33,686 bases of DNA, from contig PWNV01000020.1 in the NCBI GenBank assembly GCA_003557645.1, positions 142,328-176,013 on the forward strand. The letters run 5' to 3'. Source of the DNA: Candidatus Nealsoniibacteriota bacterium. GTDB lineage: Bacteria > Patescibacteriota > Minisyncoccia > Minisyncoccales > PWPS01. Made by a program: the position numbers and the translations under genes. This document shows positions 16,167 to 18,788 of this stretch, piece by piece (within the stretch, counting starts at the first letter, position 1; each line of letters opens with the position of its first letter). Under the pieces are notes generated by a model, which ran no database searches, was not told the DNA's origin, and saw nothing but the letters and a program-made list of their open reading frames with translations.

Positions 16167-16559
16167 TTAACCTCTCATTTTTTTAGCCCCCTGCGCTCCT
16201 TTTCTTCGCATTGTCGCAGCTTTATTCTTATACTCCTTCACCTGACGCTCTAGCTCGTACCTTACCTCATCTATCGAAGCTTTGATTGTTTCAGCAACAT
16301 CTTCCGCTTTAAGGGTTTTTCCTGGAAGAATCATCTGTGCTTCTGTTCTAAAGATTCTTCCTTTTCCTTCTCCGGTAACTTTTTCAATTTCAACTTCAAG
16401 AACAATGCGACTAACCTCTTCTCCAACCCTTTCTTGATCTTGGAGTTCCTTTTCTAAAAGAGCCGGAACAAAACGGCAAGCAGCAGAAAGTTTTTTTTCT
16501 GCATACTCTCTTAAGTGATCATTAACTTCAACGTTCTTTGCTCTTATCAATACTTTCAT
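16167..16559 (-). CDS. hpf: Ribosome hibernation promoting factor / RaiA family (short form)
   Basis: AKNVEVNDHLREYAEKKLSAACRF ... EAQMILPGKTLKAEDVAETIKASIDEVRYELERQVKEYK; adjacent to secA. Confidence 0.85.
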   Translation of the reverse strand: MKVLIRAKNVEVNDHLREYAEKKLSAACRFVPALLEKELQDQERVGEEVSRIVLEVEIEKVTGEGKGRIFRTEAQMILPGKTLKAEDVAETIKASIDEVRYELERQVKEYKNKAATMRRKGAQGAKKMRG

Positions 16560-16632
16560 AGATAAAATTTATTAACATGAATAACTATTTGGCATTTTAA
16601 CATAGGAGATTAAATAATAGAAATTACTTTGG

Positions 16633-17556
16633 CTAGCAAACAATCTCAACCTCTTTTTCAAGAAGAACTCCAAATTTTTCCTTCACTTTTTTCTTCACTT
16701 CTTCACTTAATTGAATCACATCTTCCCCAGTAGCTCCTCCCTTATTGATTATGAAATTAGCATGTTTCTTGGAAACCTGCGCTCCTCCAACAGATCTTCC
16801 CTTCATGTTACACCTTTCAATAAGGAAGGCAGCAGGAATAAATCCTTTTTCCTTGAATTTCTCCATCTCCGGAAATCTTTTAAACAGACTTAAGTCTGCC
16901 TTAGGATTTTTAAAAAAACTACCAGCGGAAGGTTCAAGGGGGTGATTTTCTTTTCGATATCCCAAAATTTGATTCATCTTCTCCTCTCCTTCTTCTCCGT
17001 ATGGGAAAAATAACTCTGCTTTCAAAATAAGAAGATTTTTTCTTTTTTTGAAAATACTTTCTCTGTAATCAGAAATACACTCTTTGCCATCCAGCTGTCC
17101 CCTCTTTAGCGTTTCAATATCTAAAATATCTACTTTTTCTAGAAAAGAATTAATAAATGTATTAAAAGCACCAGCATTTCCTCGAACAGCGCCACCAATG
17201 GTTCCAGGAACACCTGCTGCCCACTCCATTCCAACCCCCCTTTTTTCGGTCACCTTCCTTGCTACTTGAGGAAGAAAAGCTCCTGCTTCTGCCGACACGT
17301 AAACACCTTTTTCTTTTTCTTCAACCTCAATACCATCCATTTTCATTAAAATAACAACCCCTTCGTAGCGACAAGAAAACACCGTATTGCTTCCCGCCCC
17401 CAAAAAAAAGTAGGGAAGATTTTTTTTCCGTGCAACAACTAAAGCCTTTATCAAGTCTTCAATTGTTCTAGCCTTGAACAAATAATCAGCAACCCCCTTC
17501 ACTCTCATCGTCGTGTACCTCTCCAACGATACGTTTTTCTCAAAAAAGTCTTCCAT
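16633..17556 (-). CDS. murB: UDP-N-acetylenolpyruvoylglucosamine reductase
   Basis: TTMRVKGVADYLFKA, LGAGSNTVF, GMEWAAGVPGTIGGAVRGNAGAF, YRESIFK, PSAGSFFKNP, KHANFIINKGGATGEDV. Confidence 0.96.
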   Translation of the reverse strand: MEDFFEKNVSLERYTTMRVKGVADYLFKARTIEDLIKALVVARKKNLPYFFLGAGSNTVFSCRYEGVVILMKMDGIEVEEKEKGVYVSAEAGAFLPQVARKVTEKRGVGMEWAAGVPGTIGGAVRGNAGAFNTFINSFLEKVDILDIETLKRGQLDGKECISDYRESIFKKRKNLLILKAELFFPYGEEGEEKMNQILGYRKENHPLEPSAGSFFKNPKADLSLFKRFPEMEKFKEKGFIPAAFLIERCNMKGRSVGGAQVSKKHANFIINKGGATGEDVIQLSEEVKKKVKEKFGVLLEKEVEIVC

Positions 17557-17570
17557 TGTTTTTTTTTAAT

Positions 17571-17622
17571 AAAAAGGCCGGAAGCGTTAACTCCAATTCT
17601 GTGAGTACAGCCTTCCGACCCA
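17571..17622 (-). ncRNA. Candidate small RNA / leader attenuator T2 directly upstream of murB
   Basis: Promoter P2 immediately upstream; body GGTCGGAAG-27 nt loop-CTTCCGGCC forms a 9-bp stem followed by TTTTTATT; ends about 15 nt before the murB ATG. Confidence 0.6.
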
Positions 17623-17628
17623 TATGTC

Positions 17629-17656
17629 ATTCTATCAAAACAAAATAACATGTCAA
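17629..17656 (-). promoter_or_regulatory. Sigma70-type promoter P2 with extended -10
   Basis: Minus strand TTGACA-N16-TAGAAT, TGA preceding -10 (TTTTGATAGAAT). Confidence 0.75.
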
Positions 17657-17681
17657 GAAAATTTTAAAAATCATACAAAGC

Positions 17682-17704
17682 AAAAAGCCTCGCTCGAGTG
17701 AGGC
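17682..17704 (-). terminator. Intrinsic terminator of T1
   Basis: Minus strand GCCTCAC-TCGA-GCGAGGC followed by TTTTTG. Confidence 0.7.
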
Positions 17705-17737
17705 CTTTCGCCGAATTGGAGCAACTCCGTACTCACT
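17682..17737 (-). ncRNA. Candidate small RNA T1
   Basis: Promoter P1 upstream; body AGTGAGTACGGAGTTGCTCCAATTCGGCGAAAGGCCTCACTCGAGCGAGGCTTTTTG ending in a terminator hairpin. Confidence 0.6.
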
Positions 17738-17743
17738 ATCTGT

Positions 17744-17772
17744 ATGCTATCAAAAAAAAGTACAAATGTCAA
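17744..17772 (-). promoter_or_regulatory. Sigma70-type promoter P1 overlapping the stop codon of the upstream gene
   Basis: Minus strand TTGACA-N17-TAGCAT, TGA preceding -10 (TTTTGATAGCAT); TTGACA contains the TGA stop of the 17769-18788 gene. Confidence 0.7.
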
Positions 17773-18788
17773 GCTTGTACATACTCTTCCTCTTCTTCTT
17801 TTTTTAAAAAAATTTTCTGCAAAAAGCCCCTCCATGAAAGACGTGCAAAAAAGAATAATCCAAAAAAACAAACAAAAAGATCCGCCGTTCGAATTGCAAT
17901 AGCATAGGAAGTTCCTACAGCAAAGCCCATTCCAACAGCGCCAAACCCAACAGCAGAAATCATCTCCAAGCTCCCAAGCGATGCTGGTATTGGAAGTAGC
18001 ATAGAAAGAATCGTAAGACCGTAAGCAACAACCGCCCCACCCGCTTCAAAGCTGCCAATGAGGAAATAAATAATAAAGAAAGTACGAGAAAGAAAAAGAA
18101 AGTGCCTTAGAAAACTAAGAGTCATTCCTTGAAAAAGCTCTTTTTTCTTGGAAGAAAAAAAATAAAGAATCTGTCTTTCGATGTCAAGAACAACCTTTCC
18201 GTTATCTGTCGATGCAAAAGATTTTCCAAAAATCTTAAAGATTTGTCTCACGATACTTTCTTTCCTGAAAGCGCGTAGATAAAAGAAAAAAAGAACAATA
18301 AAAAGAACCAGAATAATCACTGCGCCGTAAATGATAACTGCGTTTTGAAAGGATAAAGTATAAAGAAAAAGTAAAATCAACCCAAAAAGGAGAAAAAGGA
18401 AGTGAGTGGTAACATCCATTATTTTGTCAATAATCGAGGAAGAGGCACTCTTCTTTAATCCTACTTCTTTTTTCATTAAATAAATTCTGACTGCCTCTCC
18501 TCCAAAAAGAGAAAACGGTGTTAAAAAATCTACCGTAAATCCTTTCACTAAATAGCGAACAACTATCATTAAGGGAACTTCTTCTCCCTCCGCACGTAAA
18601 ATACTTTTCCAGCGAACTGCACCAACCATTACAATTAAACAGGTCAGAAAAAGAAGGAAAAGTCCTTCTAATCCTAAAAAAAGACCGGCAGCCTCACCGA
18701 TCGTACCTAGTCCTGATTTCTCTAGTACATAGGAGAAAAGAAAAATACCCAAACCCAAGCTAATAACAAATTTTAGCGCCGTTTTCAT
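17769..18788 (-). CDS. Lysylphosphatidylglycerol synthase TM-domain / UPF0104-like flippase family membrane protein
   Basis: Multi-TM; VRYLVKGFTVDFLTPFSLFGGEAVRIYLMKKEVGLKKSASSSIIDKIMD is typical of the family; LLPIPASLGSLEMISAVGF. Confidence 0.85.
   Translation of the reverse strand: MKTALKFVISLGLGIFLFSYVLEKSGLGTIGEAAGLFLGLEGLFLLFLTCLIVMVGAVRWKSILRAEGEEVPLMIVVRYLVKGFTVDFLTPFSLFGGEAVRIYLMKKEVGLKKSASSSIIDKIMDVTTHFLFLLFGLILLFLYTLSFQNAVIIYGAVIILVLFIVLFFFYLRAFRKESIVRQIFKIFGKSFASTDNGKVVLDIERQILYFFSSKKKELFQGMTLSFLRHFLFLSRTFFIIYFLIGSFEAGGAVVAYGLTILSMLLPIPASLGSLEMISAVGFGAVGMGFAVGTSYAIAIRTADLFVCFFGLFFFARLSWRGFLQKIFLKKEEEEEYVQA

Follow-up and report, generated by a model that had tools for sequence, protein, structure and literature searches.

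The question raised by this locus is what occupies the 212-bp gap between murB (16633..17556, minus strand) and the upstream gene (17769–18788) in the window, by which we mean the whole 33,686-nt stretch of DNA analyzed here. The genome to which it belongs is 596 kb long, 98% complete, and a member of the class Paceibacteria (Parcubacteria). The original prediction placed two small-RNA genes of unknown family in this gap. As far as the sequence goes that prediction is supported: the gap holds two units, called U1 and U2 here, and both units and their promoters are conserved. What it had overlooked is the apparent mutual pairing of U1 and U2, their non-tandem arrangements elsewhere, and the likely position of U2, in most genomes, as the first part of the murB transcription unit.

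Both promoters lie on the minus strand, as had been claimed. The U1 promoter (17744..17772) reads TTGACA-N17-TAGCAT with 10 of 12 matches, the U2 promoter (17629..17656) reads TTGACA-N16-TAGAAT with 11 of 12, and TTTTGATAGnAT is common to both; the U2 promoter was the top of 36 promoter-like sites in the 12 kb scanned. The arrangement TTGACA-N13-20-GATAGNAT was found in 3 copies in the whole 596-kb genome, 2 of them at the U1/U2 locus. Because the GATAGNAT form is present in just 3 copies, we rejected the idea that the motif is the general strong promoter of this genome.

Each promoter is followed by approximately 50–60 nt ending in a hairpin and a T tract, as described previously (GCCTCACTCGAGCGAGGCTTTTT and GGTCGGAAG...CTTCCGGCCTTTTT, respectively). 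U1 (17676..17737, minus strand; covariance model R2) is a predicted small RNA of about 60 nt. Its predicted 5′ end is element A (AGTGAGTAC; 17729..17737), which is followed by element B (CTCCAATTC; 17713..17721) and then by the terminator hairpin (17679..17712; fold z −3.25, with covariation in the stem), whose 8-nt loop ACTCGAGC contains the palindrome CTCGAG (17698–17693), all on the minus strand. This hairpin had been recognized correctly as a terminator but not in its full extent; the actual stem, GGCGAAAGGCCTC...GAGGCTTTTTGC, is longer and closes the 8-nt loop. U2 (17571..17622, minus strand; covariance model R1) is a predicted small RNA or murB leader of about 50 nt. On the same strand it contains the 5′ strand of stem P1 (17612..17621; fold z −4.54, with compensatory changes), element A′ (GTACTCAC; 17601..17608), element B′ (GAATTGGAG; 17591..17599), the 3′ strand of P1 (17575..17584; identified by folding and compensatory changes), and then a T tract at 17575–17571. 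The assignment of its hairpin as a terminator also stood, with the addition that the 27-nt loop closed by this stem is the predicted pairing site. When the U1 and U2 hairpins were compared with dinucleotide shuffles, their z-scores were −3.3 and −4.5, and 0 of 200 shuffles was as good.

Several conventional identities for the two units were tried and rejected. There was no open reading frame of at least 90 amino acids between murB and the upstream gene, in agreement with the earlier observation that no meaningful frame fills the gap, and a coding explanation was discarded because no frame is conserved. The impression that the RNAs belong to no familiar family held as well. Searches of the window with the Rfam 15 covariance models gave no match at or above the gathering threshold, and relaxed thresholds yielded no known family; the best sub-threshold matches were RefA9 (18 bits, where 49 are needed) and Chlorobi-1 (11.9 bits, where 50 are needed). 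RF00013 gave no match in the window's genome (G000) while control genomes were matched, but nothing ties U1 or U2 to RNA polymerase, and a 6S RNA equivalent was rejected. By inspection, the U2 cores of relatives contained neither an ATG nor a conserved frame, which led us to reject a type I toxin-antitoxin system. Phage decoys were rejected too: the U2 pattern had 0 matches in viral contigs, and two matches to the U1 pattern there lay inside phage coding sequence and were attributed to chance. The segments GGAGUUAACGC and CUAAGUCGAC may resemble 16S rRNA, probably by chance. A search of the literature on non-coding RNA in Patescibacteria found no paper describing such RNAs.

Conservation in relatives had been set beforehand as the check on which the original prediction could fail. 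In BLASTN searches against 100 relatives, both units were recovered from most of the window's family, and partial matches extended through the order. Covariance models were then used, R1 (U2) from 22 sequences and R2 (U1) from 15, whose E-values are rough. R1 matched 120 and R2 122 of the 247 genomes of the order, usually with one copy per genome. Both were present in 104 genomes, versus 59 expected if they were independent (hypergeometric 9e-33, a value inflated by shared ancestry). A class-wide draw of 384 genomes gave 68 R1 matches, with at least one false positive (that in G449, which is a plain terminator), and 45 R2 matches. When 296 genomes were drawn from the whole phylum, matches were confined to the same class; at the sensitivity used the pair is apparently restricted to Paceibacteria. 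Genus g2 of the window's family is represented by four genomes (G002, G005, G008, and G010), none of which matched the U1 or the U2 model, consistent with joint loss. Because promoters, hairpins, and pairing segments are found repeatedly in the order, we conclude that the two units are not chance features.

The promoters proved to be conserved when U1 and U2 loci of the order were compared with control stretches. A sigma-70-like promoter with at least 10 of 12 matches was present at 106 of 118 U1 loci versus 4 of 113 controls, and one with at least 9 of 12 matches at 79 of 119 U2 loci versus 7 of 112. The −10 box ends 5–7 nt before element A across the order; for U2 its distance to the beginning of the model is mostly 7 nt. 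Because the promoters sit at these fixed spacings, transcription of each RNA probably begins with its first structural element.

The principal finding concerns complementarity between the two units. Block A of U1 (GUGAGUAC) is complementary to block A′ of U2 (GUACUCAC), forming inverted repeat I4 in the window, and block B (CUCCAAUUC) is complementary to B′ (GAAUUGGAG) inside inverted repeat I1. The predicted helices are about 8–10 bp (A:A′) and 9–13 bp (B:B′) long. At the loci of relatives, a change in one block was matched by a change in its partner. The partner blocks are GUGAGUGCAU/AUGCACUCAC and CGAGUC/GACUCG in G007, and GGUGGGUGC/GUACCCACC and CCCGAUCUAUGGUC/GACCUAGAUCGGG in G036; in G222 the GACUUAG core is reversed to GUCUUAC, and U1 is altered to match. 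The exchanges in helix A:A′ included A-U to U-A (10), A-U to G-C (9), and G-C to A-U (8), and those in helix B:B′ included A-U to U-A, A-U to G-C, and C-G to U-A.

Quantitative analysis of this pairing was performed in two ways. In a concatenated alignment of 58 rows, 51 cells were double-changed versus 13.5 ± 2.9 after shuffling, and the covariation score was 0.186 versus 0.088 ± 0.007; 0 of 500 shuffles reached either value, with the qualification that the shuffles ignore relatedness. Sliding the partner by 1–3 columns reduced pairing from 85% to 28–41%. Duplex energies were also calculated for 102 genomes between the pre-terminator region of U1 and the loop of U2, with either the true partner or U2s of other families. 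The mean for cognate duplexes was −30.2 kcal/mol, versus −22.7 for other-family partners and −11.4 for shuffled loops, and cognate pairing was better on average than pairing with other-family partners in all 30 families. Permutation by family blocks, which partly accounts for relatedness, gave a mean of −23.6 kcal/mol (SD 0.6), and the best of 2000 permutations reached −25.6.

The same comparison was made with a held-out set of genomes from outside the order that had not been used in the models and in which U1 was located only by its promoter and a TGAGTG-like start. The cognate U2 exceeded the other-family average in 27 of 27 cases (−32.7 versus −24.8 kcal/mol; SD 1.1; best permutation −29.6). 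In three genomes without a match to the U1 model, a search for the pattern of promoter plus A found U1 convergent with U2 in G357 and G459, and about 25 kb from U2 in G452; in all three, the B element found in this way fits the local U2. Evolution thus strongly supports the maintenance of both predicted helices, A:A′ and B:B′, by compensatory changes. U1 and U2 turn out to be what these comparisons would mark as co-evolving RNA partners, widespread and previously undescribed.

These results bear on two of the simpler explanations. One is that the units are neutral leftovers, two ordinary terminators whose complementarity arose from a fortuitous inverted duplication. Some similarity is indeed built in, A and B each resembling the complement of the other, but class-wide conservation, compensatory change, and the held-out validation refute this explanation, to which we assign a practically negligible probability. 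The other is that one RNA regulates many mRNAs through A or B while its partner acts as a sponge that titrates it. Complementary small-RNA pairs of such logic exist in enterobacteria, and B pairs with a GGAG motif resembling a ribosome-binding site. Such motifs are rare in this DNA, however, and a seed with many targets could not drift with one partner. Because A and B co-vary with A′ and B′, broad mRNA targeting is unlikely, and we regard the sponge as improbable.

The arrangement of the two genes varied among the 104 genomes that contain both. U1 precedes U2 in tandem in 85, within 250 nt in 67 and farther apart in 18; in the other genomes the two are convergent (7), divergent (5), or on different contigs (7). 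Close tandem arrangement is therefore absent in 37 of the 104, including the convergent, divergent, and different-contig cases, and complementarity is kept in these genomes. The frequency of close tandems might suggest a single cis-acting leader that folds as a pseudoknot, in which the promoter between the units is incidental. That explanation is contradicted by the unlinked and distant pairs, and also by the conserved promoter of each unit and the terminator of U1, and we consider it very improbable. From the varied arrangements we conclude that U1 and U2 are separate genes whose products must meet in trans.

Some genomes had additional copies. In G139 (contig C84) there are two U2 genes, at 2318 and 4058, about 1.7 kb apart; G061, a genome with 5% contamination, has two U1/U2 pairs that differ in arrangement, on contigs C11 and C25. 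In families f72, f87, and f107 of the class, the U2 motif appears to be nested: the outer A′ and B′ flank a long stem that carries a complete inner U2. Such loci are L303 (G357), L312 (G437), L314 (G452), L317 (G499), L318 (G511), L298 (G315), and L291 (G295), and they look as if copies had been inserted into one another.

U2 is closely associated with murB. In 106 of 120 genomes it lies directly upstream of murB in the same orientation. The distance from the end of the U2 model to the murB start codon is at most 30 nt in 69 of 103, some start codons being approximate, and usually leaves too little space for another promoter. In the window the start codon is about 20 nt past P1, which leaves no room for a separate murB promoter, and murB there probably depends on read-through of U2. 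A role for the GGAG of U2 as the murB ribosome-binding site was dropped because its spacing is wrong and such motifs are rare anyway; a ribosome-binding motif was present at the murB start in 8 of 103 genomes. In the window, a Shine-Dalgarno-like motif accompanies the start of 6 of 25 predicted genes, and translation in this genome seems to be largely SD-independent. The order of genes in the window (16167–17556) is murB, then an HPF-type ribosome hibernation gene and secA. At class loci L261, L267, L292, and L299, an HPF-like open reading frame directly follows U2, which suggests an ancestral order U1-U2-murB-HPF.

The alternative that comes next after our preferred reading is that U1 is a conventional trans-acting small RNA whose sole real target is the murB leader, and that U2 is not an independent RNA. 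U1 would then act on murB much as CopA acts on the CopT leader, by controlling translation, stability, or termination. The linkage to murB agrees with this explanation, and U2 still leads murB in 26 of the 37 genomes in which U1 is not close and in tandem; many U2 copies, moreover, have no T tract. Against it, 14 genomes of the order retain a U2 that is not a murB leader; murB is divergent in 7 of them and undetected in the rest. U2 copies of this kind are often followed by a T tract of their own or by a distinct terminator (G031, G074, G096, and G181); the highest U2 score overall, 88 bits, was found in G031, though U2 there does not lead murB. Elsewhere in the class, U2 precedes HPF or other genes. 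The conservation of stem P1 is likewise independent of the T tract. T runs after P1, the mark of an attenuator when they follow a GC-rich hairpin ahead of a gene, are 4–5 in the window's family, whereas lengths between 1 and 7 occur in the order. By inspection, P1 pairing is kept across the class despite wholesale sequence change; P1 aligned too poorly for a U2 model covering the class. Because pairing is kept while sequence and T tract are not, P1 appears to be structural first and a terminator second. On balance we consider a murB regulator of this plain kind unlikely.

The U1 terminator offers a further observation. Its stem shows covariation in 9 of 13 pairs, and in 65 of 102 U1 RNAs the loop is 8 nt long, with unpaired flanks around a self-complementary hexamer. 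Counted by family, the palindromes are CTCGAG (20), CTTAAG (6), CTATAG (2), CATATG (1), and CTGCAG (1); palindromic loops occur in 22 of 30 families, and switches from one palindrome to another have occurred inside several of them. A comparable screen of 463 kb of the same DNA covered 305 other terminator-like hairpins, of which 2 were palindromic, and a generic trait of local terminators was therefore rejected. About a third of U1 RNAs are without a palindromic loop. Because the hexamer stays palindromic while switching among five palindromes, the simplest reading is selection for a self-complementary loop, which suggests that U1 dimerizes by loop kissing.

The explanation that we favor, with moderate confidence, is a dedicated two-RNA complex that pairs in trans and forms a four-way junction around P1, with control of the murB leader as one output. 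U1 would be transcribed from its strong promoter, beginning at element A and ending at the intrinsic terminator, and U2 would display A′ and B′ in the loop of P1. Because A-B and A′-B′ run in the same order, A:A′ and B:B′ could pair in trans while P1 and the U1 terminator remain folded, and the product would be a junction of P1, A:A′, the internal hairpin of U1, and B:B′. Simultaneous formation of both helices is putative, as is any protein partner. Within each RNA alone, A and B can pair weakly (GAGU/ACUC), and formation of the complex would thus resemble strand exchange. In most lineages the palindromic U1 terminator loops would also allow two complexes to join by kissing. In genomes with U2 fused to murB, the complex at the leader would probably set the amount of MurB, by altering termination at P1 or by changing how accessible or how stable the start region is; in genomes with a separate U2, it would act away from murB.

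Several observations weigh against this explanation, among them the weak pairing of A and B within each RNA and the share of U1 RNAs, about a third, that have no palindromic loop. The proposed junction is pseudoknotted, A-B and A′-B′ being in the same order. In the window's genome the small U1 hairpin GGAGUUGCUCC overlaps B and must open; there it would become a 7-nt linker. The position of U2 ahead of murB in most genomes also fits a plain murB regulator. More tentatively, we envisage as a possibility an RNA-only two-component assembly, in which crossed-helix heterodimers with a four-way junction would be joined pairwise by the palindromic U1 loops into a housekeeping-like particle of Paceibacteria, murB control being secondary or incidental.

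Non-coding RNA in Patescibacteria is nearly uncharted, and the pair of RNA genes described here persists in dozens of families of bacteria with reduced genomes, next to an essential cell-wall gene; its intermolecular pairing can be read from evolution alone. If the two-RNA complex is correct, it would represent a small, naturally occurring two-strand RNA switch or assembly and would open a way to study gene regulation in bacteria most of which resist cultivation; if the two-component assembly is correct, two tiny, separately encoded RNAs build it. The predictions are testable with short synthetic RNAs.

U4/U6 snRNA and tracrRNA-crRNA are examples of two separately made RNAs that form one functional paired unit; the strand order in U4/U6 is nested and gives a three-way junction. 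U1 and U2 would likewise be separately made RNAs that pair into one unit, but without a Cas protein or a splicing context. The nearest known mechanics are those of CopA-CopT of plasmid R1, in which an antisense RNA acts on a hairpin in the repA leader and loop contact leads to a four-way junction with side-by-side helices (PMC10798244). In both systems a small RNA would pair with a leader hairpin, the U1/U2 junction being deduced from covariation, and the target element lies in an mRNA leader, for U2 apparently in most genomes rather than universally. CopA, however, is encoded on the opposite strand to its target, is fully complementary to it, and has a nested strand order, whereas U1 has its own gene, partial complementarity in two blocks, and a crossed order, is often unlinked, and may dimerize; U1 and U2 are separate same-strand loci in the window. 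Bacterial pairs of small RNAs and sponge RNAs, found by RNase E CLASH and similar methods (PMC5286369), also consist of two small RNAs that base-pair in trans, but a sponge titrates a regulator whose targets include other mRNAs, whereas U1 and U2 co-vary as exclusive partners class-wide. Multimerization by RNA contacts is known for the self-assembling bacterial RNAs GOLLD, ROOL, and OLE, homo-oligomers of RNAs hundreds of nucleotides long (PMC12286853), and for the HIV DIS, a kissing-loop dimer with a 6-nt palindromic loop (PMC7357161). The U1 loop resembles such a palindromic kissing loop and may act similarly; unlike these homo-oligomers, U1 and U2 would be a pair of different RNAs of only about 50–80 nt.
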